Shown: one piece after another, positions 12,567 to 33,329 of the stretch | How the letters are laid out: each line of letters starts with the position of its first letter | Numbering within the stretch: position 1 is the first letter of the stretch | NCBI GenBank assembly: GCA_019359435.1 | Contig: JAHHHI010000007.1 | Coordinates: forward strand, 1 to 46,327 | Reading direction: 5' to 3' | From: Kaiparowitsia implicata GSE-PSE-MK54-09C | GTDB taxonomy: Bacteria; Cyanobacteriota; Cyanobacteriia; Elainellales; Elainellaceae | Length of the DNA: 46,327 nt | Position numbers and translations under genes: made by a program | Notes under the pieces: model-generated | Seen by the model: the letters and a program-made list of their open reading frames with translations, nothing else | Told to the model about the DNA's origin: nothing | Database searches by the model: none

Positions 12567-15500
12567 CGACAAATCTCTTGAGGATCTGAAGCTGGCTCTA
12601 GACTCCTTGAACGTGAAGCCTGCATCTGGTGCCAGTGGTCATACGGCAAGACCATCTGTTCTGCATCTGCTTTCTTCATTTGTTTGCCTAATGCAGCAAT
12701 TGCTGGGAGCAAAACGGTTTGTCCTTGTTCGGCTGCTTGAACGTACCATTGCCTTAAATCATCGAGAGAGGGCGATCGCAGCGCAATAGAAGCTTTATGG
12801 GCAGTGTGCATCGCCTGAACGGCTTCTTTGCTCAAGGTGAAGTTTGGATTGGTGAAGTTCGGATCTCTCTGGTCTGAAGGCAAATCAGCCTGATCTGTTC
12901 CTTGCAGCATCTCAGTCGCAAGCGCTCTTACTCGCGCTAGATAAGAAGAGGCATGCCCTAGTACAAGCGCGTCCATTGCCCAATTCCGCATCTCCTGCAA
13001 GGTCGGATTATAGAGGTCTAGATCATTCGGCTCTGGTAATTCGGGAGAAGTAGAAGGAGAATCTGAATCCAAAATATTTTGAGAATCGGGTTCTGGAGGC
13101 ATCCAAGCTTGAGAAGGAATGTCATCGATGTCTAACGCCTCGTTTGACTCTTCATCCTCGCTCTGGCTGGATGATTCGGCTTCCTCCTCCACTGCCTCAA
13201 CCGCATTGTTCTGATATAGCCCTAACTCCATATTGATTTGGTGCTGCCGGGTGAGGGCTGCTTGCAACTCTGCTTCCTTAGGAAACACCATATTTTGATT
13301 ACCAGATAGCGTCTTTAGATCCGCAATCGCAGTGTTTAGGTGAGAGCGAGCATTCGCCAGTCGAACCGAGATGTGTTGAAGTTCGGTCACGATATTTTGA
13401 GTTGTTTCAGCATAAGAGTGTGAAATTTTGGGGTAGTAAGTTCCTGCTCCCTGGAGGCATAGGGGGCTATCTGTTCCGCTCCTTTCAGCTTTAGATCTGA
13501 TACCAATCTCGAATCCAGCAACTGAACCAACCTTCTTGTAATCTAGGCTTACCGGAAACTCCCGCTTGAGCAGTACTTTGGCAAATTCACGGGGGTCATA
13601 ATAGGTCAGACCTTCCAGTTCAGCGCTGAAGTTCTCAAATGAGAAGTCGGCCGGAATCCTTGCGGTATCTTGCTCAAGGATTGGAATCGCCTGTTCACAA
13701 TCCTGAATTCGGGCTGGTAAGAACGAAAGCTGCTGCTGCATCCGATAAGTCGTATTCAGGTGCGATCGCTTCAGCGACGAGAGTTGACTTACCTGATTAT
13801 CAATTTCGGCTTTTTCTAGAATTAGAGGATTGCCCGTAGCGATCGCCTTCACCTCAGCGAAGGTCAGGGCCGCATCCGAGAGGTCATCAACTGAGCGCAC
13901 CTCGCTATTCCCAGCCATTATCTGATCGATACTTTTCTTTTTGCTCTCCAGGGTTTGCCAGTTGTAACCATCGAAAGAGGGTCGGTTGTTGCGCCCCTGA
14001 GTGACGTAGCGACGAATCACAACGGACTCATTTTGGTTGCCCTGCCGGAGCGCACGGCCCTCAGCCTGTTCGATCTGATCCGGTCGCCAAGGAGGGGTCA
14101 GTGTAGATAAATATTTAAGTCTCTGCTGCCCGTTAAATCCTGTCTCCAATTGCTGACCGGAGATAAGGAGATGTATATCTCCACTATTAAATTTCTGTTG
14201 TAGCTTAAGCTTTTGAGCATCACTTTTGGCATCTTGAGCAAAAACGATCTGATCCGCTGGCATCCCCATCTCAACCAAGCGAGTTTTAATATATTCGTAG
14301 ACTGAAAAATGTTTGACCGCATCCTCAAACCTGGATTTGGTGGTTTTGGGAGTGCCTAGATAGCAAAAAGCTAAATGGGTTGACTTCTGTTCTCGGCTCT
14401 CTTGCCATGCAGCAAAGGAATCTTCGACAAACGCATCAACTTTATTACGCTCGTGAGGTAAATGCGGATTGATCAACCGCATATCCAGCGTAGATTTGCG
14501 TCCCTCTGTCGTGATGAGGAGCATATTATCGGAGCGTGGATCAGCCTTTGAAATATTTTCAGCCCGCTTTGCCAGGGTTTCGGTAAAAGCGAGTTGTAAA
14601 TCTGAGGAGAGGGTAGCAATAACTTCAGGCTTGCCTCCGACAATGCTTGGAGTTGGCAGATTCAGCATTTCCTTAGTTTGAATGTCTGCAATCTGACGGA
14701 AGGCGTTCATGAGTTCCGGCACGTTGACAAATCTAGCAAACCGAGTTTTGACGCGGTAGCTGCCAGCAGGACTAATTTCAGGAGCCGTAACTGTTTCCCC
14801 GAACGTAGAGGCCCAGGCATCAAACCCTGAAAGGCCCAGATCTTCAAGGAGTTGGGGCTGCAAGTAGCGTTGCATTGTGTAGACCTCCGCCATCGTATTT
14901 GCAATCGGTGTTGCAGTTGCGAATACAAGCCCTTTCCCTTCTCCGTGTTGCTGAGCCAGGTAGCGCGCCTTCATATACAGATCCATAGCGCGATCGCTAT
15001 TGGTATTGGGCAATCCGGCGACATTGTTCATCTGAGAGGTGTATCCTAAATTCTTGAACATATGTGCTTCATCTACGATCAGCAGATCTACACCCAGTTG
15101 TTCAAAGGTTAATCCATTGTCTTTGCGTTTTGGGTTATTCAAACCATCAACGCTCTTTTGCAAACGCTTGCGTTGCCGTTCAAGCTGTTTTACAACAGCT
15201 CTAGATTCTTCACTTTGTCCGGTTTCTGCGATCGCATCCTTGATGAGATCAATTTGCTCTTTATAAAATGCTTTTTGAGTGTCGGGGTTGAGGCGGAGCT
15301 TTCCAAACGCTGAATGGGTGACGATAACTGCATCCCAATCACCTGTTGCGATCCGGGCGGTCAGCTCAGCTCGATTTTGGGCAGACGAGTCTGTCTTGTC
15401 TGCTGCCAAAATATTTGCATTGGGGTAGAGGAGTTTCCAATCTTTTGCCCACTGTTCGAGTAAGTGGTTGGGTACAATGATCATGGGTTTTTGGGCCAAA

Positions 15501-17959
15501 CCCAATCGTCGGCCTTCCATCGCAGATGCAATCATGGCAAAGGTTTTCCCAGCCCCGACGCAGTGCGCGAGTAGAGTATTGCCTTCTTGAAGCGTTCGCC
15601 AAATTGCGTTTTTCTGGTGAGGTCGAAACTGAATTGTAGGGTTTGCTCCAGGCAGTGTGAGGTGTGCCCCGTTGTAGATGCGAGGTCGGAAGGTATTGAA
15701 TCGTTGGTTGTAGAGTTTGGTTAAGCGCTCGGTGCGTTCAGGCGATTGCCAAATCCAATCCTTAAAGCGAACTTTCAACTCCTCCTGCTTGAGTCGGGCG
15801 GCTGCGGTTTCGTCCCGGTTGATCACCTGCCGATCCTCAAGCGTGTCGTACACAACTGGGTTTTTGAGGTTAAGGGCCAGTTCGACTAGGCGCAGGGCAG
15901 AGCATCGAGAGGTACCTAAAATTGAGTTGTTGATAGCTGAGTTTTTAGCGAAGTATTCTCCATGCACTCCCCAACCACCCGCAAGCTTAGAATAGCGAAC
16001 GGCAATGGCGGTTTTTTCTTTAAGATCTAATGTTTCCAGCAAAAAATCTTGGATATCTTCAGGTGGAACCCAGGCTGAGCCAAGGCGCACATCAATATCG
16101 CCAGGGAGTAGCGGTTCTGGTTGCACTGCGACTAGAGCATCCACATTCACCTGATACTGAGGATCTGTTTCTGCTGCAAGCTTGGCCGCTTGCAGCTTTG
16201 ATCGAACATTGCCACTCAGATAGTCGTCCTCAGTTTGCCACTGCTTAGATTTCGGATCACGAAAAATTAATCCTTCAGCCTGTAATGCTTTAGTGGCCTC
16301 GTTTTCTGGCAGATCAACCAGTTCCCCGATATAGGTCACGTCCACATATCCCTTTTCGTTGAGGCAATACAAAAGCGCCTCTTTAGGTGTTTCGGCTGAT
16401 TCCTGGAAGAAAGATTGTGAAACAGTTCTTTGCGTAAATATCGGCGTTTTTGTAGCTGTTTTTAGATCTGAGTCGTAGTTTTCTAGAGCTAAGAGCAACG
16501 AATAATCTGGATCACTGCGGAACACAAGTCCGTTAGCGCGATCATGTACAGAGCCATATTTTTTGACAAACGCATCATAGACTCGACTTAGTTCCGCCTG
16601 AGCTTCTTGCAGTTGAGCATCAGAGTCCGTTTCGAGCTGTACATTAAGCACCTGTTGGGCCACATCTCGCAGTTCCATCAGCTTCAGGCATCGCTCAAGC
16701 TTTTTCCCCTCATAGCCAACTGAATGCAATAGATCCCCACGTCGCTGCATCAGCACGACATCTAATCCAAGTGGGACTTTAGTAAAGGCTTGAGGTTTTA
16801 CCTCATCCAGATCTGGGGGAATCGGAATGGCTTGCAGTTGAAAGGCACTCTCTTCAAAAGCAACTTGGGTTGCTTTTTGATAAATATTTTTAGGGAACTC
16901 TCGCTCAAAGCATTGTTGAATCGCAATCCGTAGATCGCGCCCATCTCCGGTCAGGGCCAATCGTCCGGGATGGAGCTTGTCGTCGCCCATCTCTCCTAGC
17001 ATCAGATGAGGCCGTTCAGTATAATACTCGTTAATTCGTAGCGGTTTTCCGTCTTGCCCCAAAACTGAGGATTCAGTTAGCTCAGTCCATTGAATCCCGT
17101 TCGGTTCAATCCCGGCTCCCAAACGTTGCAAAATAATTAAATCGGTCGTTACCTCGGTTCCCGCAAACTTTTTAAAAGCGTCTCCCGGCAACCGAAGTGC
17201 CCCAATCAGATTCGCTTGCTGCGCCAACTGTTCTCGCACAGCCTGTCCTCGCCGTGATTGCATCGTGCCTGTTGAGGTGATGTAAACCAGCAATCCCCCA
17301 TGCCGAACAGAATTCAATCCCTTTAGAAAGAAGTAGTCGTGGAGCGTCTTTGCAGCTCTATATTTTGGATCGGCAACGCCCACTTCGCAGAAGGGCACGT
17401 TGGAGATCGTCAGGTCAAAATATTTTTCGGGAGTGGGAACCGTCTCGAACCCAGCAATGTGAATGGTTGCTTCTGAATACAACTGCTTGGCAATTTTGCC
17501 AGAAATTGCATCTAACTCAATCCCGACAATGTTGGAGGTCTCAGACATTCGGCGGGGCATCAATCCCTCAAAATTCCCCGTTGCACCCATTGAGGGATCT
17601 AAAATGCGCCCACCCTTAAAGCCCAACGATTGTAGACCTGAATAAATACCCTGAATTACCTCTGGAGAGGTGTAGTGGGCATTAAGGATAGCGGCCCGTG
17701 CGGAATCATACTCATCCTCACTGAGAAGCGATCGCAGTTCGGTCTGTAAGCCTCTCCAATCCTCTTTGGTAGTAAAAATATCTGGGAGTGAACCCCATCC
17801 TGAAAATCGAGCCAGAATATCTTGATCTGCTGGGGTGGCGCGCTTCCCGGTTTGTTCTAATTCTTTAACCAGTGAGATCGCCTGAATATTCCGCCTCGCT
17901 CGGAGCTTCGGACCTAGCGGGGGTAAGTTATCTAGTTGAATCCGGTAGTTCGTTGGCAT
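12563..17959 (-). CDS. Giant polyvalent DNA methyltransferase-helicase (DarB-like)
   Basis: A 1798-residue protein. Residues 1-70 carry the family opener (ELEQTGKRATPADQDILARF, then SGWG). An N6-adenine-type methyltransferase follows: motif I DPSMGATGNF at 121-130 and catalytic SNVPF at 186-190, an altered NPPF box. A SNF2/SF2 helicase lies at about 780-1320: GAGKT near 803, DEAH near 961, TATP near 1010, and QAEGRALRQG near 1298. The C-terminal 300 residues are acidic and low-complexity, then helical. Such proteins are carried by phages and conjugative elements, and some protect incoming DNA from restriction, as proposed for phage P1 DarB. It is last in the minus-strand transfer cluster and overlaps the preceding gene by 32 bp. 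Activity of the NVPF variant is uncertain. Confidence 0.82.
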   Translation of the reverse strand: MPTNYRIQLDNLPPLGPKLRARRNIQAISLVKELEQTGKRATPADQDILARFSGWGSLPDIFTTKEDWRGLQTELRSLLSEDEYDSARAAILNAHYTSPEVIQGIYSGLQSLGFKGGRILDPSMGATGNFEGLMPRRMSETSNIVGIELDAISGKIAKQLYSEATIHIAGFETVPTPEKYFDLTISNVPFCEVGVADPKYRAAKTLHDYFFLKGLNSVRHGGLLVYITSTGTMQSRRGQAVREQLAQQANLIGALRLPGDAFKKFAGTEVTTDLIILQRLGAGIEPNGIQWTELTESSVLGQDGKPLRINEYYTERPHLMLGEMGDDKLHPGRLALTGDGRDLRIAIQQCFEREFPKNIYQKATQVAFEESAFQLQAIPIPPDLDEVKPQAFTKVPLGLDVVLMQRRGDLLHSVGYEGKKLERCLKLMELRDVAQQVLNVQLETDSDAQLQEAQAELSRVYDAFVKKYGSVHDRANGLVFRSDPDYSLLLALENYDSDLKTATKTPIFTQRTVSQSFFQESAETPKEALLYCLNEKGYVDVTYIGELVDLPENEATKALQAEGLIFRDPKSKQWQTEDDYLSGNVRSKLQAAKLAAETDPQYQVNVDALVAVQPEPLLPGDIDVRLGSAWVPPEDIQDFLLETLDLKEKTAIAVRYSKLAGGWGVHGEYFAKNSAINNSILGTSRCSALRLVELALNLKNPVVYDTLEDRQVINRDETAAARLKQEELKVRFKDWIWQSPERTERLTKLYNQRFNTFRPRIYNGAHLTLPGANPTIQFRPHQKNAIWRTLQEGNTLLAHCVGAGKTFAMIASAMEGRRLGLAQKPMIIVPNHLLEQWAKDWKLLYPNANILAADKTDSSAQNRAELTARIATGDWDAVIVTHSAFGKLRLNPDTQKAFYKEQIDLIKDAIAETGQSEESRAVVKQLERQRKRLQKSVDGLNNPKRKDNGLTFEQLGVDLLIVDEAHMFKNLGYTSQMNNVAGLPNTNSDRAMDLYMKARYLAQQHGEGKGLVFATATPIANTMAEVYTMQRYLQPQLLEDLGLSGFDAWASTFGETVTAPEISPAGSYRVKTRFARFVNVPELMNAFRQIADIQTKEMLNLPTPSIVGGKPEVIATLSSDLQLAFTETLAKRAENISKADPRSDNMLLITTEGRKSTLDMRLINPHLPHERNKVDAFVEDSFAAWQESREQKSTHLAFCYLGTPKTTKSRFEDAVKHFSVYEYIKTRLVEMGMPADQIVFAQDAKSDAQKLKLQQKFNSGDIHLLISGQQLETGFNGQQRLKYLSTLTPPWRPDQIEQAEGRALRQGNQNESVVIRRYVTQGRNNRPSFDGYNWQTLESKKKSIDQIMAGNSEVRSVDDLSDAALTFAEVKAIATGNPLILEKAEIDNQVSQLSSLKRSHLNTTYRMQQQLSFLPARIQDCEQAIPILEQDTARIPADFSFENFSAELEGLTYYDPREFAKVLLKREFPVSLDYKKVGSVAGFEIGIRSKAERSGTDSPLCLQGAGTYYPKISHSYAETTQNIVTELQHISVRLANARSHLNTAIADLKTLSGNQNMVFPKEAELQAALTRQHQINMELGLYQNNAVEAVEEEAESSSQSEDEESNEALDIDDIPSQAWMPPEPDSQNILDSDSPSTSPELPEPNDLDLYNPTLQEMRNWAMDALVLGHASSYLARVRALATEMLQGTDQADLPSDQRDPNFTNPNFTLSKEAVQAMHTAHKASIALRSPSLDDLRQWYVQAAEQGQTVLLPAIAALGKQMKKADAEQMVLPYDHWHQMQASRSRSLEPASDPQEICR

Positions 17960-18284: not shown

Positions 18285-18312
18285 TGACACGCATCTCCGT
18301 GTTACAAAAATA

Positions 18313-18345
18313 TTTTCAGGATGCTTGCGACAAGCATCCTGAAAA
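18313..18345 (-). terminator. Hairpin with following T-run between two transfer-region genes
   Basis: Perfect 15-bp arms (TTTTCAGGATGCTTG and CAAGCATCCTGAAAA) close a CGA loop. On the minus-strand transcript the right arm is followed by TATTTTTG, so it fits an intrinsic terminator or attenuator. It lies between the 194-residue gene and the 118-residue gene. It may separate the helicase pair from the upstream transfer operon, or reduce read-through into it. One AAATATTT copy (18308-18315) sits at its edge. Confidence 0.6.
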
Positions 18346-18967: not shown

Positions 18968-20401
18968 TTAACGTTCTAACTCGTCTTCTGGCTCATCCAG
19001 TTCTGCATCAGGTGCAGATTGGAATTGCCCATCGGAATCAAGCTGCTCAGCATTCTCGTTGAGGAAGGCTCTTGCAGCCTGAACACTTGTAATCGGGGTA
19101 GCAATCGTCGTTGCAGATTGCTTGTTGTAGAGTTCGACGATGGCACCATCGCCCAACTGCTGCTCCAACGTCCCTAAAAACTCTAGATCCCGTCGCATCC
19201 GGGCAAAGTCTCCATGCGGCATCGTCACATCTGGAGAATAAAACTCTGGGTCAGCCTTCAATGCGCTTTGAAAGGAGTCGTATCCAGCGCTGGATGCAAG
19301 CTGATTTCCCAGCCGACGAATCTCGTTTAGCTGATCGGCGGGATACCCTAATACGGTTGCCGCCGCGTGCCATTGATTGATTTCTCCCAACGTAGGGCGA
19401 TACCCAGTGTCGGGGGCAGCGCTCCGAACTAAACCCGTGTCCTCGATCTCCTGCTCTGAATAGTCATCCTTATAATCCGGATCAAGACCATAGTCTGTTT
19501 CAGCAGAATAAAAGTCGGACTCAGGGTAGTCAGCATAGACCCCATCATCCTCATAGGGGGTATCGTCTGGCTCTTCATATTCTGCTGAGGAACTATGGGG
19601 TTCAGGGGATTGCCGTTCTGCCCCCTGATTCCAAGCTGTACCAACAGACGGCACACTTGGCGTTGAGTAGCACTTTTGCGAGAGAGCTGCAAAATATTTT
19701 TGAGCATCCCTATCAAGCTCATTTCGCTCAAACTTACCGTCTTTCCACCGCAAAACTGTGAAGTCAGCGTCTGAGCGTTCATGGTCGTGAATCTCAATTG
19801 CACCATCTTCCATGCGGTGGAACGAGTAGCGCTTAAGCTCTGGATCGGTGCTGCGGTAGGCTCCCCCTGGAGAGAGTGCTGCGAATGATTGTGCAACATA
19901 AAGTGCTTGAGTTCCAGCAGGAGCGAGGCTTCTCAGCGACCTTGGATCTTGCCTCATCTGCTCCAGGTCGCCATTTTCAATGGCTCTAGCTGCACTCAAA
20001 AAGGCGTGCTGCTGCTCTTTCGTTGCAGCGTAGTCAAGGATTTTGACTGCATCCTCCTCAATCTCAAACGCGAGAATTGAATTCCCCTCGTCATCGAACA
20101 CTTCAAACCGCTCTTTGCCGTCTTCAGTTGTCTGTGAGCTGATGCGATAGTCTTCTCCCTGGTACTGCCCATTTTCCCCGTACTCTTTTGCAAGATAGGC
20201 AGCAGTTGCGGCCATCGCCTGCCGCTTTGCATCTTCAAGATATTTCTCAGCAAACCCTGATGCTTCTTCCTTTTGTGTGGCTTGCATTTTCATGAGCATC
20301 TTGATCAAATGCACCAGAGCAATTGCCCCGTCCTCCAACTCTCGGTTGGTAATGTCAGCCCCCTGTTGCGCGCCTTCGGCCCGTGTGAGATCAATAATCA
20401 T
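18968..20401 (-). CDS. Acidic hypothetical protein coupled to VirD4
   Basis: A 477-residue protein whose ATG overlaps the VirD4 stop (TAATG), indicating translational coupling. Residues 1-75 are helical (VHLIKMLMKMQ, then Ala-rich AAATAAYLAKEYG). Residues 80-230 contain beta-rich repeats of the type FEVFDDEGNSILAF and YSFHRMEDGAIEIHD. Residues 250-320 are a long Asp/Glu/Tyr/Pro-rich linker. The C-terminal part (about 330-460) is helical (RPTLGEINQWHAAATVLGYP). The helix pattern TLxEIxxWHAAAxxLGxP resembles segments near the C-terminus of the giant helicase (TLQEMRNWAMDALVLGHASS), suggesting a shared small module. It could be an accessory of the coupling protein or relaxosome. Function unknown. 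Confidence 0.65.
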   Translation of the reverse strand: MIIDLTRAEGAQQGADITNRELEDGAIALVHLIKMLMKMQATQKEEASGFAEKYLEDAKRQAMAATAAYLAKEYGENGQYQGEDYRISSQTTEDGKERFEVFDDEGNSILAFEIEEDAVKILDYAATKEQQHAFLSAARAIENGDLEQMRQDPRSLRSLAPAGTQALYVAQSFAALSPGGAYRSTDPELKRYSFHRMEDGAIEIHDHERSDADFTVLRWKDGKFERNELDRDAQKYFAALSQKCYSTPSVPSVGTAWNQGAERQSPEPHSSSAEYEEPDDTPYEDDGVYADYPESDFYSAETDYGLDPDYKDDYSEQEIEDTGLVRSAAPDTGYRPTLGEINQWHAAATVLGYPADQLNEIRRLGNQLASSAGYDSFQSALKADPEFYSPDVTMPHGDFARMRRDLEFLGTLEQQLGDGAIVELYNKQSATTIATPITSVQAARAFLNENAEQLDSDGQFQSAPDAELDEPEDELER

Positions 20402-22317
20402 TAGAACCCAGGCTCCTCAGTTGCAATAAGTGAATCAAACTGACTGGCGCTATCTTTCAGCACATCGGCAAACGTCTTTGGGACTGAATCAGGCTTGCCA
20501 ACCACTGCGGGTTGTTTTTTGTGCTGGGCAGACTGGTTCCCGTCACTTAACGGAGGAATCACCTGCGCGATCGCCACTTGCCGTGCTGTTAAATCAGCTG
20601 CACCAAAGGAGTCTTGCCGCCCTATCGAGCGAGAACGCTCAATAAATGCAGGAAAGCCAGCTTCCCCGGTCGCAATGCTGGTGAGTTCATGTTTAGAGAG
20701 CTTGACCCGTAAGCGAGCTGGGACACTGCTCTCTTTCGCTGAAGCATAGGCAGGATTGATCAACACAAAATCTGCAAAGGGAAAGCTTGGTGTGGGTTGC
20801 CGCAGCTTCAAGAGTTCTTCAGGTGGGATGAGTTTTTTAGTCCGCTCTTGAGGGGAATAGCTGCGGCTACTGCCACTCTTGCCAACCGAGCGGCTTTTTT
20901 GCTCGTAGCGGATCTCTTCCTCACCGATGAACTTGGCAAAATATTCAGCCGTTTCGTACTCACCAGGGTTGAACACAATTTTGGTGCCGCAGCCGGTGAG
21001 GATTGCTCGGGTTGTTTCACGGGTGTAGGCTTTATCAAGCTGGCTCATATTTTGAAAACCCAATACTCCACAGAATCCAGCGGAGCGCGATTCGTTGAGC
21101 CAGTTAGGGAGTTTGGGAAGCTGAATAGTTGCCACCTCATCTAAGAACACCCCCAACGGGTCGTTGCGCTTTCTAGCAACGTTGCGGGTGATGATCATCT
21201 CCATGACGGCGGCCACAATTGGAGAAATGATGTCGCGGCGATTTTGATCCATCCCAAAGATCAGCAGTTGCTTTCCCTCCAAATCGAGCGGGATGGTGGT
21301 GGGGCCACACAGTGCCCCCAGCAAATCAGGCGATGCGAAGTTAGAGAACATCAGGGCCGCAGTCGCAGCCACCGAAGAAGCGGTTTTCTCACTACTCTTC
21401 ATCGACAAGAACTGATCCCAACTCACCTTGACCCAAGGGGAGATGTTAGAGGCTTCAATCACTCGCTTGATGAGTTCTGTGGAGTCAATTGCCAGAATGG
21501 ATTGGCAGGTCAACACATCCGGCAAGGTCGTGAGCTTAGCCAGTTGCAGCGTTGCCTTGATGAGCTGGTCGCCGGACATCTGGAAGAAGGGATCATTGGT
21601 GCGGCCTGGGGCGCTTGAGAAGTTTTGGTTTAGCGTCTTTGCAATTTGTCCAGCCGTTTCACCATCGTCAGCACCCCTCAAGAAATCCAGCAAGTTGCAG
21701 GTTTCACTGCCCGCGAAACCCGGAGCAAAATATTTCACCTCATATCCCAAGGACTCTGCATAGGCAGCATGTACCTCAGCTTGACCGTTGGGAAATTTGA
21801 AATCGTACAGGACAACTGGATTGCCCTGCTCTAGAAACGAGCGAATCATGGGGTCAATCACGAAGCGAGACTTACCCACACCTGGGGCACCCATCACAGC
21901 CGTTCCTTTTTGCACATCTGGAACGAAGACCGTTTGAGTCGTGGGTTTGGCTACAATCGCCCCATTTTTTGCTTGTTTCAGCTTTGGGCTATTAATCCAG
22001 GCTGCAACCGAATTGCGTTTGCCTTCCCGAATCTGCTGTAGCGCTGTTTTCCGGGCTGATGCTTTTTCTTTAGCACCAGCCCATTGCGATGTTGCCAAGC
22101 GGCCTTTTTGAGCGCTGCCATCATGGTTCATCCACACTAAAAAAGCGATGCTCCCTATCGTCATCAACAGCCCTTCAGGGGTAAATATTTTTGTCTTTAT
22201 CCCCTGAAGGGCAGGAGGGGCAGGAATCTGATCTCCAAGCGACTGGAGGGCTTCTCGCCCCTCAGCAGGAGCGGGAAACAAGAGCACAAGTAGCAATACC
22301 AGCAGCAAACGTCTCAT
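20401..22317 (-). CDS. virD4: VirD4/TraD-type coupling ATPase
   Basis: The frame is open from 22401, but the ATG at 22317 (MRRLLLVLLLVLLFPAPAEG) is preferred: it begins with a hydrophobic signal/anchor, whereas the extension is Cys/Arg-rich and unlikely. A second hydrophobic span lies near residues 48-62 (GLLMTIGSIAFLVWM). Walker A GAPGVGKS is at about 142 and Walker B VFLDEVA near 384, followed by FCGVLGFQNMSQLDKAYTRE, the family's Gln-rich motif III. The protein would sit in the inner membrane and pass the relaxase-DNA complex to the secretion channel. The C-terminal ~100 residues are a variable cytosolic tail. No relaxase gene is nearby. Confidence 0.88.
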   Translation of the reverse strand: MRRLLLVLLLVLLFPAPAEGREALQSLGDQIPAPPALQGIKTKIFTPEGLLMTIGSIAFLVWMNHDGSAQKGRLATSQWAGAKEKASARKTALQQIREGKRNSVAAWINSPKLKQAKNGAIVAKPTTQTVFVPDVQKGTAVMGAPGVGKSRFVIDPMIRSFLEQGNPVVLYDFKFPNGQAEVHAAYAESLGYEVKYFAPGFAGSETCNLLDFLRGADDGETAGQIAKTLNQNFSSAPGRTNDPFFQMSGDQLIKATLQLAKLTTLPDVLTCQSILAIDSTELIKRVIEASNISPWVKVSWDQFLSMKSSEKTASSVAATAALMFSNFASPDLLGALCGPTTIPLDLEGKQLLIFGMDQNRRDIISPIVAAVMEMIITRNVARKRNDPLGVFLDEVATIQLPKLPNWLNESRSAGFCGVLGFQNMSQLDKAYTRETTRAILTGCGTKIVFNPGEYETAEYFAKFIGEEEIRYEQKSRSVGKSGSSRSYSPQERTKKLIPPEELLKLRQPTPSFPFADFVLINPAYASAKESSVPARLRVKLSKHELTSIATGEAGFPAFIERSRSIGRQDSFGAADLTARQVAIAQVIPPLSDGNQSAQHKKQPAVVGKPDSVPKTFADVLKDSASQFDSLIATEEPGF

Positions 22318-22351
22318 GGTGGGGGAAGGTGATGGGGCATCGCGGAATAAT

Positions 22352-22513
22352 CTAGTCTTCAGGCGATTGAGGCAGAGGCTTTTCCGGCAGCGATCGCACA
22401 TTGCAGACCGCTAACGGATGAACGCTATTGCACTTCGGGCAGTAGAACGTCAGTGGCACCAGGGACGAGCCAAGCAGGCGACCAGAAGAATGTAGAAACA
22501 ATCGTCGTTTCAT
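22352..22513 (-). CDS. Possible small protein with one CxxC
   Basis: A 53-residue frame starting MKRRLFLHSSGRLLGSSLVP and containing FYCPKCNSVHPLAVCNV. The CPKC pair plus a third Cys hints at half of a zinc ribbon. It fills the gap between the secreted 212-residue gene and virD4 on the same strand. No strong ribosome-binding site is seen, so it may be chance. Confidence 0.3.
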   Translation of the reverse strand: MKRRLFLHSSGRLLGSSLVPLTFYCPKCNSVHPLAVCNVRSLPEKPLPQSPED

Positions 22514-22551: not shown

Positions 22552-23190
22552 TTAGACATCCCAAAATGGATGTGAAGCAGGCTGCTCAATGATGCAATTA
22601 GTGGGATCTGGAGCAATCCCAAAGGTTTTGACGGCTTCCGCTTTCTCCCAAGGCAGAGTGCAGATGTCTGTGATATCTGTAAACTCCTCCGGCTCAAAGT
22701 CCAGCGGATTTTCCAGTGCATGTTTGATCACGCTGGGAAATGCGGGGTCTGGATAAATCTTGTTGTTGAATAAATACCACTGTCTTGCCAGTTCAATCGC
22801 GACATAGGGGGGTGCAAAATCGGTCAAGCGGGGTGCTGAGTCCTGACCAATGAAGTTCTCGCATAACCCATCGACCCGAACTCCAATCAGTGTTTGCCAG
22901 GGTTCATAGGGATGACCCTCAGAGAATACGTTGATGTAGTGGTAGGTCAGGGGCCGCTCTACGTTGTGATCCATCAATGCAGATGCATCCTCAACAGATG
23001 CCAGCAAACTAAATTGCTGTGGTACTTGATGGCTAGGAGTTGGAGGTAGGCATTGCGCTAGCGATTGCAGCAATGGAGTATTTTCAGAGTTGAGAACATC
23101 AACAACAGACGGAGTGGCGATCGCCCTAGATAGCAGTAGCAGTGAAATACCTACGGCTGTCAATAGGCTCCAAAATATTTTGCGAAACAT
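22552..23190 (-). CDS. Secreted hypothetical protein of the transfer region
   Basis: A 212-residue protein with a clear Sec signal (MFRKIFWSLLTAVGISLLLL, then SRAIATPS). An AGGAGGT Shine-Dalgarno sits 6-7 bases before the ATG. The mature part holds four or more cysteines (LAQCLPPTP, GLCENFIG, DICTLPWEKAE, NCIIEQPA), suggesting disulfides in the periplasm, and an aromatic stretch LARQWYLFNNKIYPDPAFP. It lies 10 bp after the M23 peptidase gene and before virD4. It may be a periplasmic component of the transfer channel. No family is recognised. Confidence 0.65.
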   Translation of the reverse strand: MFRKIFWSLLTAVGISLLLLSRAIATPSVVDVLNSENTPLLQSLAQCLPPTPSHQVPQQFSLLASVEDASALMDHNVERPLTYHYINVFSEGHPYEPWQTLIGVRVDGLCENFIGQDSAPRLTDFAPPYVAIELARQWYLFNNKIYPDPAFPSVIKHALENPLDFEPEEFTDITDICTLPWEKAEAVKTFGIAPDPTNCIIEQPASHPFWDV

Positions 23191-25162: not shown

Positions 25163-25918
25163 CTAATTTCCAAAGATGCGCTGCACGAACGAGGGGGCGA
25201 TTCCAGCTTGAGTTGCTGCCTCTTCGATGGAGGAGCCTTCACTGAGGTATTGAGCAACCTGATGGGTTTTTCTCCAGGCTTCCCCATCCCTGACCAGTAA
25301 GCCGTTGCTGACGGCCCGTTCCATTGCTGCGCCCAATTCTGGGGAAATTGGCGGATTGTTGGCCGCAGGAATGCTAGACGGTGGGGCCGGACGAGCAGAA
25401 AACTGGCGGGATGGTGCTGCGGGCTGAGGATGCACAATTTCAATCATCCCGACATCAGTTGGAGCCCCCAGCACTAGCTCAAACAGGTAGGTGCGCTGCC
25501 GCCCTGCTGCATCCACAGTGCTGATGGTGAGCGGCATACGATTGGAGCGGCTGGCCGAAGAGGGCAACCGTAAATCCATATCCAGGCGATGGGAGAGCAT
25601 TCGCAAAAATAAAATATTTGCGCCAAGTCCCTCATCTTTAGCAACTTGCCCACCGCTTGACTGCGGCAATGGGGCATCTGTGTCGATGACAATTCGGGAG
25701 ATATCTCCGACGCGCCACTGTTGAATCCGCTCACCCGTTTGAAGAAAGCTGAGAGCAAGCCCCCAGTGAGGCGATACTTCAATCTGAGGGACAGCCCCCG
25801 AATTGAGGGCATAGGGAAGCCTAGTGACTGATAACGCATCAGCGGCTTCTGGTGCAGTTGAAAGTGATAAAACTGAGGCAATCGCAATCGCCCCAAAATA
25901 TTTTTTTACTCGGTTCAC
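25163..25918 (-). CDS. VirB9/TraK-like outer-membrane-complex protein
   Basis: 251 residues from a GTG at 25918 that overlaps the VirB10 stop (GTGA). The signal peptide is near 1-28 (KKYFGAIAIASVLSLSTAPE). Residues 30-160 are beta-rich with VSPHWGLALSFLQTGERIQQ, a WRVGD step, then RTYLFELVLG, the arrangement of the VirB9/TraK N-terminal domain. A Pro-rich linker (about 165-190) leads to a helical C-terminus (GAAMERAVSNGLLVRDGEAW, then EEAATQAGIAPSFVQRIFGN) that does not look like the usual VirB9 C-terminal domain. The assignment relies on neighbours VirB10 and VirB8; a TraK-type secretin is the close alternative. Confidence 0.6.
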   Translation of the reverse strand: MNRVKKYFGAIAIASVLSLSTAPEAADALSVTRLPYALNSGAVPQIEVSPHWGLALSFLQTGERIQQWRVGDISRIVIDTDAPLPQSSGGQVAKDEGLGANILFLRMLSHRLDMDLRLPSSASRSNRMPLTISTVDAAGRQRTYLFELVLGAPTDVGMIEIVHPQPAAPSRQFSARPAPPSSIPAANNPPISPELGAAMERAVSNGLLVRDGEAWRKTHQVAQYLSEGSSIEEAATQAGIAPSFVQRIFGN

Positions 25919-27543
25919 ATCATCCTCCTGGGCAACTGTACCGACTGATTGAAAAAAACTCGCACCTGCGTACCGCTACGAATCTGCCACTGCCGCGCAT
26001 CAGCAAGAATTTCATCTGTGGCGCGATTGTTGCGCTCGTCTATTGTTTCAATCAACCGATCCATCCCTCCTTCAATGGCACCAGCCAGATAATCTGGAGC
26101 GGGATTTTCGGAAGATTCAACTACCGTCCCATTGGTTGTCACTCGCGTACTGCTACGAGAACGGTTTTGCAGCCGACTAGCACCCTGAGCGGCTCCTGTC
26201 AGGATGCGGATGGTATCGCGTCCGACTGTGCTACGCCGAGAGGTGCTGCGGCCCATAAGAAAGCCACCATCAGCCCCCCGCACGGATAGTGCGTTCGACG
26301 GTGGCGGAAACTCTTGCCCACCGACAACAACGGAAACGACCGTTAGCTCGGCCACACCATTCCCTCCCGGTGCAGCTGTAACGACTAGCTGAGTGCCTTC
26401 AGGCAACACGATCTCATTGGCGCTGTCTTTGACAGGTTCTGTCAATTCAAGAAAGAAACGATTTCCTCCAGAGAGCTGTGCTACTGAATTCCTGCCGCTG
26501 CTTTCTGTCCAAACAATTGGAGCTACAGTTCTGGCTTGAACATTCGTGCCAACCACGATTTGCCGATTTGAGGCATTTGGTGAAGAAGCTGAAGGTGGGG
26601 TCATCGCCCATAGCGATGCTCCTGTCGATTGATATACGGGAGCAGGAGACGATACGCCTCTGGCGGATGCAGGTAATTGTGGAGCAGAAGCAGGTTGGAT
26701 GCTGCCAAGCATCCGATCCGGTGCAATGCTCGTTTGGGAAGCGACTCGTGTAACAGGGTTCACGGTTGGGGCATTTGCCTGTGCTGTTGTCGTAACGTGA
26801 GCTGCGCCAACCGACTGCACAACCCCCGAGCGACCTGAACGAGCGATACGCGCCCACTCCTCAAACGGATCAATAGATGGCCCCGAGGGAGCAGGACGAG
26901 CAGGGGCAGATCGGGCAGATGGAGCAGGACGATAGGAGCTAGAAGGCGACGAAACCGGAGCAGCAGCAGGAGGGGCCGGAGGAGGGGCCGGGGGAGGGAC
27001 TGGGGGATTACTCGTTCCTGTGCCTTTGGATGCGTCAGGTTCAGGATTTTCAGTAGCAGGCTCTTGTTCGATTAGTTGTAGAACCTCATCGCCTGATGCA
27101 GGTTCCATTTGCCCTGCTGCTATGTCTTCCTGTTGCCGCAATAGAGCCAATTCCGCCTGAGCGCGAGCAGCTTCTTGTTTTGCGACTTCCAACTCAATAT
27201 CTCTTGCTGCCTCAGCAGCATTTGCAATTTCTTCCTTGCTTGGGGACTCATCCCCCTGACCAAATTTGGAAAAAGTAGTGGAATAAAAGCCAAAAACGAG
27301 CAGGGTTATGGCAAGTGTGGAAACTGAAACAAAGCCAACTTTTACTCCAATCCGCTTGCTGAGTGGAATTGGTTCTGCCTCTTCTTCTACGTCTATCCCA
27401 TCAGTTGGGCTAGCTAGATCAGTTTCTTTTGTTGGGGCATCTTCAATAGATCCTGTGTTGTTTGTTGGTAACAATGGAGCCATTGGGTCAGTTGGATCAA
27501 CAACGACCCCTACGTGCTCTGCTAGATTTGCGATGTCATTCAT
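25915..27543 (-). CDS. virB10: VirB10/TraB-like channel scaffold protein
   Basis: A 542-residue protein. It has a cytosolic acidic N-terminus (1-65), one membrane span (about 68-88, VGFVSVSTLAITLLVFGFYS), then a coiled-coil segment (about 100-140, AEAARDIELEVAKQEAARAQ), a long Pro/Ala/Ser-rich periplasmic linker (about 170-230, PPVPPPAPPPAPP) and a C-terminal beta-domain (about 345-540) ending GTQVRVFFNQSVQLPRR. This is the layout of VirB10, which links inner and outer membranes and senses ATP use. Its ATG overlaps the VirB8 stop (ATGA), and its stop overlaps the VirB9-like GTG. Confidence 0.82.
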   Translation of the reverse strand: MNDIANLAEHVGVVVDPTDPMAPLLPTNNTGSIEDAPTKETDLASPTDGIDVEEEAEPIPLSKRIGVKVGFVSVSTLAITLLVFGFYSTTFSKFGQGDESPSKEEIANAAEAARDIELEVAKQEAARAQAELALLRQQEDIAAGQMEPASGDEVLQLIEQEPATENPEPDASKGTGTSNPPVPPPAPPPAPPAAAPVSSPSSSYRPAPSARSAPARPAPSGPSIDPFEEWARIARSGRSGVVQSVGAAHVTTTAQANAPTVNPVTRVASQTSIAPDRMLGSIQPASAPQLPASARGVSSPAPVYQSTGASLWAMTPPSASSPNASNRQIVVGTNVQARTVAPIVWTESSGRNSVAQLSGGNRFFLELTEPVKDSANEIVLPEGTQLVVTAAPGGNGVAELTVVSVVVGGQEFPPPSNALSVRGADGGFLMGRSTSRRSTVGRDTIRILTGAAQGASRLQNRSRSSTRVTTNGTVVESSENPAPDYLAGAIEGGMDRLIETIDERNNRATDEILADARQWQIRSGTQVRVFFNQSVQLPRRMM

Positions 27544-28334: not shown

Positions 28335-28345
28335 CTCAGATCACC

Positions 28346-29383
28346 TTACATTCCTTTGAAAACAGCAGCCCGAACGATGCCCGTTGTTGCGCCACCAACG
28401 GTTTTGTTGATTCCGTTGAAAATGGCGAGTCCACCTCCAGCCGATAACGAAAAGGCCAGAATTGGGGCTAACAGCCCAACAAAAATTGAGAAGGCAAGGG
28501 TTTCGCTCGGGCCAACTCGGGCAATCTGTTCAGCCACCAATGCGGTAACAATATTGAGGCAGATTTTGCAAAACCCAAGACTCCAAAATGCTGAAACCCA
28601 TAAATAAATGGGCTTTGATCCCATCGGGAAAAAGCTGAGGCCCACGGATAAAGGAGCCAGAAGCCCAGTCAGTAAAAATGAAACTTCAATCAAGGCTTGA
28701 AAGGCTGCTTGCATCCCAATCAGAAATGCCTCAACCTGCAACGTGATGATTGACGGCATGAAGCGAAACGCCATACCTGCAGCTGGATTGACAATATCAA
28801 ACGCAGATTGAGCAATTTGGCGCAATGTATCTATCCAGTCTGTCCCGAGTGTTTGATTTTGATCCTCGTACTGAGCAATCAATTCCTCAGCTTGCCCTCT
28901 TGTTTCCTCTAAACAAATGGCCAGAGCTTCGTTATCGGTGATGGCATCGCAGCGTCTACGCAGGTCGTAAATCGCACTTTCTGCGGCAGGATAACTACCC
29001 AGATCTCGCAACACTTGTTCAGCATCATTGCCAGCCGCAGCGACCACTAGCATCTCAGAATTGAGAGTGTTAATCACACCTCGAAACGTAACAACAACAT
29101 CTCCCAGCAGCGACCCTCCATTAATCAGCAGCATGCACAAAATAATGGGGTAAATCAGCCGACTCAACGGCTTTGCCGTGACATCATCTACAAGATTCTG
29201 AAATAGCTGAACTGTCCATATCGCTATACCAAAAACGCCAAAGGCGATGCCCAGATTGCAAAGAGCCAGCCACAGTGGGCCACCAATTACCACGCCCCAT
29301 AGCTCATCCCACGCACCGGAGATCAAATCAGCGACGGTGTCTGATTGATTGAAAATGAACTGACAAATGAATGGTTGCATCAT
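28346..29383 (-). CDS. VirB6/TrbL-like polytopic membrane protein
   Basis: About 345 residues with the start placed at ATG 29383; a TTG two codons upstream overlaps an AAATATTT copy. Membrane spans appear near 30-55 (PLWLALCNLGIAFGVFGIAI), 75-100 (LIYPIILCMLLINGGSLLGD), 215-255, 265-290 and 300-325 (GLLAPILAFSLSAGGGLAIF). A large Cys-containing loop lies between spans 2 and 3 (about 125-195). Multi-span proteins in this slot form the VirB6/TrbL/TraG part of the inner-membrane channel. It is 11 bp upstream of the VirB8-like gene. Confidence 0.68.
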   Translation of the reverse strand: MMQPFICQFIFNQSDTVADLISGAWDELWGVVIGGPLWLALCNLGIAFGVFGIAIWTVQLFQNLVDDVTAKPLSRLIYPIILCMLLINGGSLLGDVVVTFRGVINTLNSEMLVVAAAGNDAEQVLRDLGSYPAAESAIYDLRRRCDAITDNEALAICLEETRGQAEELIAQYEDQNQTLGTDWIDTLRQIAQSAFDIVNPAAGMAFRFMPSIITLQVEAFLIGMQAAFQALIEVSFLLTGLLAPLSVGLSFFPMGSKPIYLWVSAFWSLGFCKICLNIVTALVAEQIARVGPSETLAFSIFVGLLAPILAFSLSAGGGLAIFNGINKTVGGATTGIVRAAVFKGM

Positions 29384-29428
29384 CAGCAAAATATTTTATG
29401 AACATGAAATGGTGATCGTTCCTGCGAT

Positions 29429-30535
29429 TTATCGCATGAGTCGATGCCCTACTGCATTCATCCGGTTGAGGTAATTCGATGCAGCCTGATCGTTAATCAG
29501 TTGATGCTCCCGTTCCCCTTTCTGCGCCTCAATCAGTGCCGTTACCCCCAGGTTGGTTCCAGCCAATTGATTGTTCATGGATTCCAGGGTTGCGTATTGC
29601 CGATTCTGTAATTGAACTTGAGCAGACAGTAGGGAGCCAACCTGAACAACTTGCCCCGTTTGGTTTCCCATCTGCTGTGCCTGGATTGAATTCTGTTCCG
29701 CTAAAATCGCTAACTGGCTTACTGCGGCGAGACTGAGCTGCCCACCTGCCGCATGTTGTTCTGCAAGGATTTTGAGAATGTCCTGGGAGCTGGTTTGGGC
29801 CTGCGCTTCTGTCGCCAGTTCATCCAGTTGAGCTTGATGCTGAACCCCTTGCTCTCTAGCCGTTACCGCTTGATGGCCATACTCCAGGCTTTCTGCAATC
29901 CAACTCGATTCAGCCGCATATGCTTCACGCATCGCTTGAGAGAGTTCATTAGAGCCAATCGCTAATCGAGTGGCGGATTCTAGACCCTCTGCACTGAGTT
30001 TTTGTCCATCCTCGCCCAGAACTGAATCGTACAAACTGCGGCCTGTGACCAGGGCTTCTAGCCCCTGAATGGCAACAGCAGAAGGAAGATAAGGGTGCTG
30101 GATATTACCCGCTGCGGCATCAGCCCGTAGCCGCTCCCGCATCTCGGTCGGGTCTGGATGTCCACTATTGCGAACAATATTGGCATTGCTTCCATCCGGG
30201 CGGAAAATTCCCATGATCTCCTGCATATATTGATCTAGGACGTTGCCGTTGAATAGATCGCCAATGCGGCTAATCATTTCCTCAACCTGTCTGGACAATT
30301 CAAGCGCACGTTGCCCCTGCCCAACGAGATCCATGATGTTGTCGGGCAATAAATCTTCAAGCGATGGCAGTTCAGGCGACCAACCGCCACCAACCATCTC
30401 TGCTGAACTGGGCAAAGCAGTCGTTGATAGCAATATCATGGCGATCGCAGAGGAAGCAGCAAGTCTATGACGCTGCCGTAGCCGCAGTTGGGATAGCATC
30501 ACGATGATGGGTTGATGGGCTGGAGTGTTGTTCAT
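29429..30535 (-). CDS. VirB5/TrbJ-like secreted coiled-coil protein
   Basis: The frame is open to 30874, but the part above 30535 is only the antisense-free shadow of virB4. The ATG at 30535 gives a basic stretch and a Sec signal (HRLAASSAIAMILLSTTALP, then SSAEM). The mature ~320 residues are helical and Gln-rich (ALELSRQVEEMISRIGDL; EQGVQHQAQLDELATEAQAQ; AEQNSIQAQQMGNQTG), as in TrbJ/VirB5 proteins that cap or assemble the pilus. It overlaps the 3' end of virB4 by 71 bp. The family is inferred from signal peptide, coiled coil and position between VirB4 and VirB6. Confidence 0.65.
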   Translation of the reverse strand: MNNTPAHQPIIVMLSQLRLRQRHRLAASSAIAMILLSTTALPSSAEMVGGGWSPELPSLEDLLPDNIMDLVGQGQRALELSRQVEEMISRIGDLFNGNVLDQYMQEIMGIFRPDGSNANIVRNSGHPDPTEMRERLRADAAAGNIQHPYLPSAVAIQGLEALVTGRSLYDSVLGEDGQKLSAEGLESATRLAIGSNELSQAMREAYAAESSWIAESLEYGHQAVTAREQGVQHQAQLDELATEAQAQTSSQDILKILAEQHAAGGQLSLAAVSQLAILAEQNSIQAQQMGNQTGQVVQVGSLLSAQVQLQNRQYATLESMNNQLAGTNLGVTALIEAQKGEREHQLINDQAASNYLNRMNAVGHRLMR

Positions 30536-33329
30536 CGGTGTCAGGCTCCAAACTATTTTGTTGATGGGGAATACGAATTTCACGCCCTTCTCGAATTGCA
30601 GATACATACTCGTCAGTAAACGCAACCAGGGCTTCAGTGCGATCTGGATAGGCTTGGAAAAAGGCTTGCCGTGCCTGAGTTTCCTTCGGGTTGTTAGCAA
30701 CAACGGCAAGCAGTAGTGGAGGCACGTAATAGCGAACGTAAGTATAGGTGCCCCCTTCATCGAGCAGCCATTGAGAATACAATTCATGCTTGGCTGGGTA
30801 GAAACTCTCGCTGGCGTTTCGAGCAATGATTTGAGGCGGAATTTTGAGGATCTTGACAAACGATTCTTGGGCAACGGGCTGAATTCGTCCGATTAAGCGG
30901 GTGCTCATGTTCTGCAAAATCATTGGCCCTGCATCGCTTTTATCGATCGTATTGGGGTCTTGAGCGGCGAGGAACACTCGAATCCCAGACTTTGCACCGT
31001 TAGCGGTCAGTCGTGCAATGAGGCGACCAATAGCGGGCCACTCCAGCAAGACCGAAAATTCATCGATAAAACAGATCGATGCGGGATGGGATAGGGTTGC
31101 ATTGAGGACTCTCGAATACGCTGAAAGCGCCAGCACAGCTGCATCTTCTGAATCGCTCAAGCCTCGCAAAGCGTAAACCATGAGATTAACGTCAGCCTTA
31201 CAGGTGGTTGGACGGGCAATTGCCCGGCCAACGCGAGACTGCACCCAAAAGCCAAGCTGTCGCTTAATTTGGTTGATGCCAGCAGCCGTTGTCGGATCAT
31301 TCAACACCGATTCAGGCAATGTTTTTAGGGTGCTATCAAACAATGCAATGAAATCATTGAGGGTTGGGATTTCCTGCCACGCTTGAGAACTCATTCCCCC
31401 TGCATAGGCTTCAGCAAATCTGCGTTTAATGTTGGGGTGGTTATAGAAGGCATCAACGGCAGGGATGATGATCGACCGGATGCCCTGCTTCAACATCCGG
31501 TCGTTCGTGGTTTGTGGCTCTCCAGATCCAAAAACCATCAACATCAAGGCAGAGCAGACGAACTCCTTAAAGTCTGTCATCCGCTCAGCTTGTTCTTTTT
31601 CGGTGAAGCTAGATAGGTCAGGAATTTCAAGTAAATTGGCTGATTCACGACCAATGTCGAAATACGCGCCCCCGTTATAATGCGTCCAGTCTTTGAAGGT
31701 GCTTGCTGCGTCTGATGGTGGAAAGTCCATCACGATGATCGGCAAGTTGTGAGCCAACCCCATCTGCAACACTTCAGAAATCATCACCGACTTCCCGGCA
31801 CGAGTTGTCGCAAAGTACGCAACATTGCGATGCTCTTTGAAGAAATCAAGGTGAATCGGAACCCCTCCTTCATCGCTGATGAGTTCTAACCCTGATGTAG
31901 AAACAGGCCGAGGTTGAACCAGGGAGAGGAAGGCTGGGACTTCTTTGGAGAGGTAAGTCAGTCTACGGTCAAAGGGGGTGGACAGTAACCGATCCCATGT
32001 AGTTGGCAGGGTTTGCAGCCAGATTCGCCATGCATAATTACGTTCAATCTCAAGCGATGCTGGGCGCTGGAAACAGCTAGAGAAGTATCGAGAAGCTGCT
32101 TGCAGTTCATTAACCGTCTTGCGGTGGACAAGAAAAACAGTAGCAGTCTGTACAGGCGTGGCCCCTTCGTACAATTCCTCAGTTGCTTGCATTGCTTTGC
32201 GCTGTTTGATGCCAGCGACGACATCAACGTTGGCATTCTGCTGGCTGGTTGATTGAGAGGCAATGGCTTGGCGCGTGATGCGAGAAATCTGCTCTTTAAC
32301 GATTGCTTCACTGGCCTTTGTAATTTGGCAGAACACTTCTGTATCAAATACTGCTTCCCGCGCAAACACATCCCAGAGATACCGCAGTTGATGGGCTTTT
32401 GAAGCCCAACCTCCCGGCTTATCTGCAAAGACCAAGACCCCAACTTCCTTCCCGCGCACCGTAACGTGATCTGGATGAGCCTGGGGCACATCGGACGGTT
32501 GAGGAAAGAGAGCAGAGGTCAGATGCCAATCGGTAGAGGTTTCTTCAGCGATGCCATCCTCTGTGAATGTGAGCTGCTGTGGAACTGGAGGGGCTTCACA
32601 ATCATTGAACCGATCCCATAGTGCTTCCCACAGCGATTGGGCATCCATTGGCTTTAGAATCAGATTCATTTTGATGGCTAGGATCTGCTCCCAGCGAATG
32701 AAGCCATCCACAAAAGCCTGTTCAAGAATATCTGAATATTCAACCTTTTTAACTCGGTTATTCCATCCAGAAATTTGATTCCAGGCTCCTTCTAATTGCC
32801 CCAGAATCTTCTCAATTGTGTCTGCTGCGTCTGCTGTTGCAGGGTTAATGGTAAAGGAAGCGTAAATCCGTAGCTTCTTGGGCTTTCTCAGGCCACTTTC
32901 CTTCAGCTCACGAATACGCTTCTTTGCTCCCAGCAATAGTGTTTTGCATGAATCGGTTGTTTTGGGATCAAGGCATAAACGCGACAATTGGTTTTGTCGC
33001 TCCATATCCGAGCTGAATGATGAGAAATGAAACGTCAGGTGCTCTCCCGGCATTAACTCTTTGATTCCGTCTTCAACAGAATCAAAAATATTTTCGGAGT
33101 ATTCACCCATTGTTGGATGAATCCCTTTGGTCTCAAAACCAAAGATGACTCGGTAGATCTTATTCGGCTCTTTTCCCTTGGAGAGTAGTAATCCCCCCGC
33201 TGCTCTGCCCTTCAAATCAAAGCTAACAATCGATTCACACGGGATCTCGTTCTCAAATGGTTTGAGGGTGCGCCGAGCTTTCCCTGGCGCACCATTTGTC
33301 TTTTGAGCTGCGCGTGCTGTAAATTTCAT
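30465..33329 (-). CDS. virB4: VirB4/TraC-type conjugation ATPase
   Basis: The start at ATG 33329 (MKFTARAAQK) shares its A with the TGA of the VirB3-like gene (TGATG), so it is preferred over 33359. About 954 residues. The N-terminal 450 residues are the TraC-type N-domain. Walker A TRAGKS lies near residue 510, Walker B SICFIDEFSVLLEW near 753, and LAAQDPNTI follows. VirB4 powers pilus assembly and substrate transfer at the inner membrane. It is the best-conserved marker of the system and fixes the cluster as a type IV secretion system. Codon use and HIP1 content match the neighbours. Confidence 0.9.
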   Translation of the reverse strand: MKFTARAAQKTNGAPGKARRTLKPFENEIPCESIVSFDLKGRAAGGLLLSKGKEPNKIYRVIFGFETKGIHPTMGEYSENIFDSVEDGIKELMPGEHLTFHFSSFSSDMERQNQLSRLCLDPKTTDSCKTLLLGAKKRIRELKESGLRKPKKLRIYASFTINPATADAADTIEKILGQLEGAWNQISGWNNRVKKVEYSDILEQAFVDGFIRWEQILAIKMNLILKPMDAQSLWEALWDRFNDCEAPPVPQQLTFTEDGIAEETSTDWHLTSALFPQPSDVPQAHPDHVTVRGKEVGVLVFADKPGGWASKAHQLRYLWDVFAREAVFDTEVFCQITKASEAIVKEQISRITRQAIASQSTSQQNANVDVVAGIKQRKAMQATEELYEGATPVQTATVFLVHRKTVNELQAASRYFSSCFQRPASLEIERNYAWRIWLQTLPTTWDRLLSTPFDRRLTYLSKEVPAFLSLVQPRPVSTSGLELISDEGGVPIHLDFFKEHRNVAYFATTRAGKSVMISEVLQMGLAHNLPIIVMDFPPSDAASTFKDWTHYNGGAYFDIGRESANLLEIPDLSSFTEKEQAERMTDFKEFVCSALMLMVFGSGEPQTTNDRMLKQGIRSIIIPAVDAFYNHPNIKRRFAEAYAGGMSSQAWQEIPTLNDFIALFDSTLKTLPESVLNDPTTAAGINQIKRQLGFWVQSRVGRAIARPTTCKADVNLMVYALRGLSDSEDAAVLALSAYSRVLNATLSHPASICFIDEFSVLLEWPAIGRLIARLTANGAKSGIRVFLAAQDPNTIDKSDAGPMILQNMSTRLIGRIQPVAQESFVKILKIPPQIIARNASESFYPAKHELYSQWLLDEGGTYTYVRYYVPPLLLAVVANNPKETQARQAFFQAYPDRTEALVAFTDEYVSAIREGREIRIPHQQNSLEPDTDEQHSSPSTHHRDAIPTAATAAS

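Follow-up and report, generated by a model that had tools for sequence, protein, structure and literature searches.

A palindromic octamer of A and T iterated across a conjugation gene cluster and a telomere-resolvase region of a cyanobacterial genome

The stretch of DNA analysed here, called the window throughout, is the entire contig C7 (46,327 bases) of a genome assembly of 6.72 Mb in 109 contigs. Its gene-transfer segment looks like part of a cyanobacterial plasmid. The HIP1 level of the genome and the affinities of its genes identify the host as cyanobacterial. A set of minus-strand genes between 12563 and 34266 encodes proteins of the VirB4/TraC and VirB10/TrbI types, an M23 peptidase, a protein of the VirD4 type, several unknowns and a giant SNF2 protein, and is colinear in gene order with other cyanobacterial conjugation clusters. 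The giant SNF2 helicase-methyltransferase (12563-17959, minus strand, 1798 amino acids), a candidate maker of the mark discussed below, carries methyltransferase motif I (DPSMGATGNF) in its N-terminal part and a variant motif IV (SNVPF). The same strand encodes a VirD4/TraG-type coupling protein (20401-22401), a TrbI/VirB10-like protein (25915-27543; a weak match under the Pfam cut-off) and a VirB4/TraC-type ATPase (30465-33359; scoring under the curated cut-off, with matches in 8 of 11 compared loci). The left flank of the cluster holds genes for a type I-D Cas3 protein and a WYL regulator together with metabolic genes, the right flank a transposase gene and metabolic genes. The Cas3 gene (Cas3d, E 9e-167) adjoins the divergent WYL-domain regulator at 1484-4905; this is close to the contig's left end, beyond which the remainder of a CRISPR-Cas locus may lie. 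A 42-base repeat is present twice (6141-6214 and 10545-10628, 81% identical), and each copy precedes one of the two arms of a 25-base inverted pair; the copies are 4.4 kb apart with metabolic genes between them and may be the two borders of a cassette or a mobile unit. A perfect 36-base palindrome lies between open reading frames at 43413-43448, and a 24-base palindrome at 43135 within a listed one. Elsewhere in the assembly, contigs C49, C67, C5 and C60 have a GC content of 0.60-0.64 and little or no HIP1 excess and probably stem from contaminating bacteria.

The palindromic octamer AAATATTT occurs in 15 exact copies between 13072 and 33093, all within the conjugation cluster, and not once in the remainder of the window. 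The first-pass annotation had reported this restriction; our recount agrees, and the excess is stronger than stated there. In the giant gene, copies at 13072-13079, 14551-14558, 15409-15416 and 16882-16889 stand in codon phase 2 and those at 14109-14116 and 17418-17425 in phase 0. The VirD4/TraG-type gene holds one in phase 0 (21728-21735) and one in phase 1 (22183-22190), and the gene at 25163-25918 one in phase 2 (25612-25619) and one in phase 0 (25896-25903). Further copies are found in the genes at 18968-20401 (19692-19699, phase 0) and 22552-23190 (23173-23180, phase 1) and in the VirB4/TraC-type gene (33086-33093, phase 2). The copy at 18308-18315 is intergenic, and that at 29389-29396 overlaps by one base the 5' end of an open reading frame (28346-29389) with a listed TTG start. 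Thus 13 sites are in genes and two outside, and all three phases are used (5, 2 and 6 sites in phases 0, 1 and 2), as had been claimed. The gaps are irregular (mean 1,430 bases, coefficient of variation 0.77) and the positions do not depart from uniformity (P = 0.25), which argues for a process acting wherever possible and against signals at set positions. The flanking bases are A in 11 of the 15 copies and T in 11 of 15, which lengthens the motif.

Base composition does not account for these copies. A trinucleotide model of the 20.8-kb cluster, the kind of Markov background proposed in the annotation, expects 0.35 copies where 15 are present (Poisson tail ~8e-20), and AAATATTT is the commonest 8-mer of the cluster, ahead of HIP1. 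Dinucleotide shuffles of the whole window gave a mean of 1.03 and never reached 15 in 100 trials. The twelve one-mismatch classes of the octamer amount to 8 copies in the cluster on both strands (0.67 on average) and to 13 outside the cluster. As these neighbours are rare in the cluster, AT-richness is not the cause, and it is the exact octamer that is in excess. The control TTTATAAA has one copy there. The core AATATT was ruled out as the unit, since outside the octamer it shows no excess in genes (8 copies, ~8 expected), and palindromic flanks, which seemed in excess at 22 of 24, proved to come chiefly from the octamer (15 of those 22).

For each gene we counted the places at which synonymous codons allow the octamer and compared them with the places filled. 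Within the cluster AAATATTT fills 13 of 15 permitted places, where codon usage predicts 2.28; the places were counted on proteins that the octamer itself may have shaped, so that this occupancy is perhaps somewhat inflated, and the numbers are small. In 2000 synonymous shuffles of the cluster genes the octamer appeared 2.4 times on average. For twelve other A/T-rich octamers (five palindromes of A and T, seven that differ by a single letter) between 1 and 16 places are permitted, and none of the twelve fills more than one; the occupancy is therefore not a by-product of protein composition. In the cluster the octamer CAATATTG is also a little above expectation, with 4 of 14 places filled against 0.61 expected. 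On C7 outside the cluster, AAATATTT fills 0 of 8 places. A mild excess is general to such clusters: in 60 further stretches of 8 to 20 kb around VirD4 genes it occupies 36 of 337 places where 19.9 are expected, which is what speaks for an origin by chance, AT-richness or codon bias. Against such an origin stand 15 copies where 0.35 to 1.03 are expected, shuffles that yield at most 4 copies (dinucleotide) or 7 (synonymous, against 13 real ones) and the single copy of the control, and we regard it as negligible. On the shuffles, the trinucleotide model and the one-mismatch classes, AT-richness, dinucleotide bias and codon bias were all rejected, and with them the local bias that the annotation had weighed against its own reading.

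Nor is the octamer equally frequent genome-wide, the other possibility raised there: the rest of the 6.72 Mb holds 71 further copies, 67 of them outside C6 and C7. A second group, of four copies, lies at 34-42 kb of contig C6, as judged from the 50 of 86 genome sites that were among the matches listed. All four have the longer form AAAATATTTT, and the full genome list of such sites with the extra T contains no group on any further contig. The C6 group surrounds genes for a telomere resolvase (ResT/TelK family, E 1e-28) and for ParA; in its genes 3 of 3 permitted places are filled against 0.12 expected, in a group picked post hoc through its octamers. The 400-base ends of C6 and C7 share no 21-mers. 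From the common octamer and similar HIP1 levels we infer that the two contigs belong to one plasmid, perhaps one with hairpin ends. A hairpin or inverted-repeat context of the octamer was rejected: the site at 22183 is flanked by a 12-bp stem (22170-22212) within the start of the VirD4 gene, but it is one of 19 sites, and 2000 random positions gave one such stem.

The C6 stretch at ~36.2-41.1 kb (L053:11193-16130) holds the resolvase and ParA genes, many 8-base repeats of the TTATCTGG type, two TCTGGATATCCAGA palindromes and a 300-base segment that is duplicated at 95% identity, and probably serves a linear plasmid in partition or replication. Of 388 cyanobacterial genomes 96 contain a match to the resolvase family PF16684, 95 of these over the cut-off; the same is true of 1 of 14 control genomes, that of Synechococcus elongatus, so that a match need not always mean a linear replicon. 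That the octamer group encloses the resolvase and ParA genes would suit a parS-like partition site, one of the functions first suggested for it, or a telomere-associated plasmid repeat. The ParA locus at 38-41 kb, however, has clustered repeats of its own, namely 11 TTATCTGG and the two TCTGGATATCCAGA; the window contains neither TCTGGATATCCAGA nor the longer repeat ATCTGGNTATCTG, and bare TTATCTGG only three times. Where parS sites cluster by parA, the octamers are dispersed through genes. A partition or telomere repeat is thus disfavoured and, in our estimation, very improbable.

The contrast with the surrounding DNA becomes clearest when both pieces are taken together. In this backbone (the C7 cluster and the C6 group) AAATATTT fills 16 of 18 permitted places, against 0 of 13 in the neighbouring DNA (C7 flanks and C6 1-33 kb; C6 past 43 kb belongs to neither set) and 0 of 29 in a chromosome sample (Fisher P 1e-12 for 16/18 against 0/42 elsewhere). 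The sample consists of eleven 20-kb stretches unselected for the octamer and presumed chromosomal from their HIP1 density, high-GC C5 and C60 (likely contaminants) and contigs chosen for holding the octamer being excluded. HIP1 occupies 336 of 383 places in that sample, 39 of 64 in the neighbouring DNA and 16 of 36 in the backbone. The octamer hence saturates the element as HIP1 saturates the chromosome sample.

As to how the sites arose, 47 alignments over the 13 in-gene sites show gaps inside the octamer codons in only two, one with two columns on the side of the protein studied here and the other with one column on that of the relative. The residues encoded by the octamer match those of relatives in 50 of 162 cases; for residues up to 15 positions away on each side the figure is 552 of 1360. 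As the same relatives and sites enter more than once, these comparisons are not independent of each other. Few gaps together with low residue identity indicate that the octamers grew mostly by in-place substitution at tolerant positions. Judging from the protein alignments, such substitution would sometimes have changed amino acids: at the VirD4 site 21728 the residues are K-Y-F, unlike those of ten relatives, which have R-V-F (four), R-I-F (two) or H-V-F, D-I-F, K-I-F and R-V-L (one each).

Related conjugative elements, in which the annotation had proposed to look for the same octamer, do not carry it at a comparable level, neither in the three closest clusters nor in the 60 VirD4 stretches. 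Of the closest three, whose VirD4 and VirB4 proteins are 53-58% identical, G265 has 5 copies in 40 kb and fills 3 of 11 permitted places (0.63 expected), a slight excess; G270 has one copy in 18 kb and fills 1 of 5 (0.37 expected); G093 has none in 24 kb, its 5 places being empty (0.24 expected). The highest AAATATTT count among the 60 stretches is 6, in a stretch of 39% GC. When GATC-containing palindromes and the hexamer CGATCG had been removed from that survey, no palindrome came near the P value of AAATATTT here, the best being AGATATCT (5 copies, P 6e-6) and CATCGATG (6 copies, P 7e-5). Across 388 cyanobacterial genomes, counted against the reversed control, none has a comparable density: the cluster holds 720 copies per Mb, the genomes at most ~380, and the highest are small ones in which the control is about two-thirds as high. 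One other cyanobacterium has five copies in 10 kb by raw count (contig C32 of G163, 33.6-43.6 kb). Searches for relatives of the element gave one remote match among genome contigs and, among plasmids, no more than 48% identity in the best 40 of 480 matches; the VirB4 search of viral contigs gave no match and that for the telomere resolvase one short partial match. At the level of titles and abstracts we found no description of AAATATTT as a highly iterated palindrome (HIP).

These distributions bear on the main rival to an origin within the element, a former-host imprint, according to which the element stayed for long in a lineage with AAATATTT as its genome-wide HIP, moved recently to the present HIP1 host and gained the neighbouring DNA there. 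The empty permitted places of that DNA (0 of 13) and of the chromosome sample (0 of 29) would agree with it, and the plasmid of Calothrix sp. PCC 7716, with 47 copies of GGCGCC against ~2.5 expected, illustrates that plasmids can carry a host-type HIP. Yet no genome of the required kind is among the 388 cyanobacteria, and known alternative HIPs are GC-rich apart from TCGATCGA with 50% GC, as far as the account in PMC4390886 extends. Moreover, the undecayed AAATATTT together with HIP1 at 16 of 36 places would demand a very recent move and both palindromes in the former host. We therefore consider this history unlikely, while giving it more weight than any other rival.

Alternatively, the octamers could be binding sites of a nucleoid, silencing or replication protein encoded by the element, with selection acting on the total number of sites. 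Confinement to the backbone, presence in both genic and intergenic positions and the lengthening of the motif by flanking A and T (11 of 15 each) would be in agreement with a bound protein. Near-saturation, irregular spacing and a strict octamer are unusual for AT-rich nucleoid-protein sites, and here 16 of 18 places are filled, the spacing is irregular and near-matches are not in excess. Furthermore, the seven small unknown open reading frames of the two regions belong to no credible Pfam family; a TetR-type regulator is encoded at ~46.9 kb of C6, past the octamer group. Binding sites of this kind thus appear rather improbable, clearly more so than the former-host imprint.

The annotation had also named the giant methyltransferase, for which the octamer might be the target. 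The part of this proposal that stands is the presence of methyltransferase motifs: motif I is accompanied by a variant motif IV that reads NVPF or NIPF in four aligned giant relatives, and residues 93-279 give weak matches to methyltransferase families, while a PDB search with the N-terminal profile returned no match. A general link between giant proteins and palindromes is not borne out. Of 19 further loci that encode a relative of this giant (6 on plasmids, 13 on viral contigs; 26-45% identical), one has a strong iterated palindrome, the GGCGCC of the Calothrix plasmid, and this agrees with a host HIP; GGCGCC is the HIP of another Calothrix strain (PMC4390886). A 20-kb stretch of a conjugative contig whose giant protein is 52% identical likewise lacks an iterated palindrome. 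The tra-linked giant SNF2-methyltransferase is a possible, weakly indicated candidate for the enzyme behind the mark, and the best one.

We assume, at about even chances, that AAATATTT is a HIP1-like highly iterated palindrome restricted to the element and made by an element-tied process of DNA marking or repair. The backbone to which it is restricted comprises the C7 conjugation cluster and probably the ParA/telomere-resolvase region of C6. The process, encoded by the element and working in cis or while the element replicates or is transferred, would convert near-matches into AAATATTT and then keep them. Most simply, the octamer would be methylated at adenine, and this methylation would be coupled to biased repair or protection, analogous to what has been proposed for HIP1 and cytosine methylation; the tra-linked SNF2-methyltransferase would be the candidate enzyme, and the sites would serve as marks that distinguish the element from host DNA rather than as signals at fixed positions. 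Since HIP1 is also found in the backbone (16 of 36), a simple swap of the host HIP fits poorly. Against element-tied marking it may be held that an enzyme acting in trans should leave its effect on the chromosome as well. The more specific proposal of a conjugative, possibly hairpin-ended plasmid with its own HIP-making system, in which the SNF2-methyltransferase or another gene of the element marks AAATATTT in cis and saturates the backbone, is speculative, and we put it at about one chance in a few. If it were true, HIPs would be footprints of modification systems that can be transferred with an element rather than fixed traits of a host. What makes and keeps HIP1 is a long-standing question, and a second HIP-like palindrome within ~30 kb, with a short list of candidate genes, makes it testable.

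The oriented genome motifs Chi and KOPS are short, over-represented and not palindromic. AAATATTT shares their over-representation, but it is an exact palindrome without orientation or strand bias and therefore cannot mark a direction, which disposes of the transfer-orientation mark suggested earlier. An element-local AT-rich palindrome comparable to AAATATTT was seen in another genome (contig C43 of G082, 1-41 kb), where AGATATCT occurs 11 times in 40 kb of the first 41 kb, including two tandem pairs GAGAGATATCTGAGAGATATCTG, and once in the 60 kb beyond. Of these 11 copies, 5 lie between listed open reading frames of at least 110 amino acids, whereas AAATATTT is dispersed with 13 of 15 copies in genes. 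The tandem pairs and the sites between reading frames look operator-like, and we rejected AGATATCT as a second case of an element-local HIP.

The closest likeness is to HIP1 (GCGATCGC), likewise a palindromic octamer that occurs about once per kb and in every codon phase. HIP1 is reported to have spread via substitution (Robinson 1997, as cited in PMC4390886) and fills ~88% of permitted places (336/383, chromosome sample), akin to AAATATTT in the backbone. The earlier comparison of AAATATTT to a DNA-level address like HIP1 is borne out by the kind of motif, the occupancy of permitted places, the use of all phases and growth by substitution. It is a palindromic octamer far over the Markov expectation (15 against 0.35), present once per 1.43 kb and in all phases within genes; the density given for HIP1 in PMC4390886 is 300-2700 per Mb. 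Unlike HIP1, AAATATTT contains no G or C, belongs to one element (0 of 29 places in the chromosome sample, 0 of 13 in neighbouring DNA) instead of the whole host genome, and has no established cognate methyltransferase. The alternative HIPs GGCGCC, GGGATCCC, rCCGGy and GCsGC (Elhai 2015, PMC4390886) resemble it as non-HIP1 palindromes of HIP-like density. According to the same account, they are described genome-wide and are at least 75% GC, the derivative TCGATCGA being 50%; HIPs unrelated to HIP1 occur where HIP1 is low, and TCGATCGA coexists with HIP1 in some genomes. In the backbone HIP1 is below the chromosome sample (16/36 against 336/383) yet present. Because AAATATTT lacks cytosine, the GmeC mismatch-repair model as set out in PMC4390886 cannot make it and an adenine-based analogue would be needed, which counts against explaining HIPs in general by that model. 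Conjugation efficiency in Synechocystis is described as falling to half when the CGATCG methyltransferase is lost, with CRISPR interference unaffected (PMC6604393), so that a role of HIP-type marks in conjugation is worth testing. AAATATTT is set apart from known HIPs by its base content and its confinement to one element, where it coexists with HIP1.
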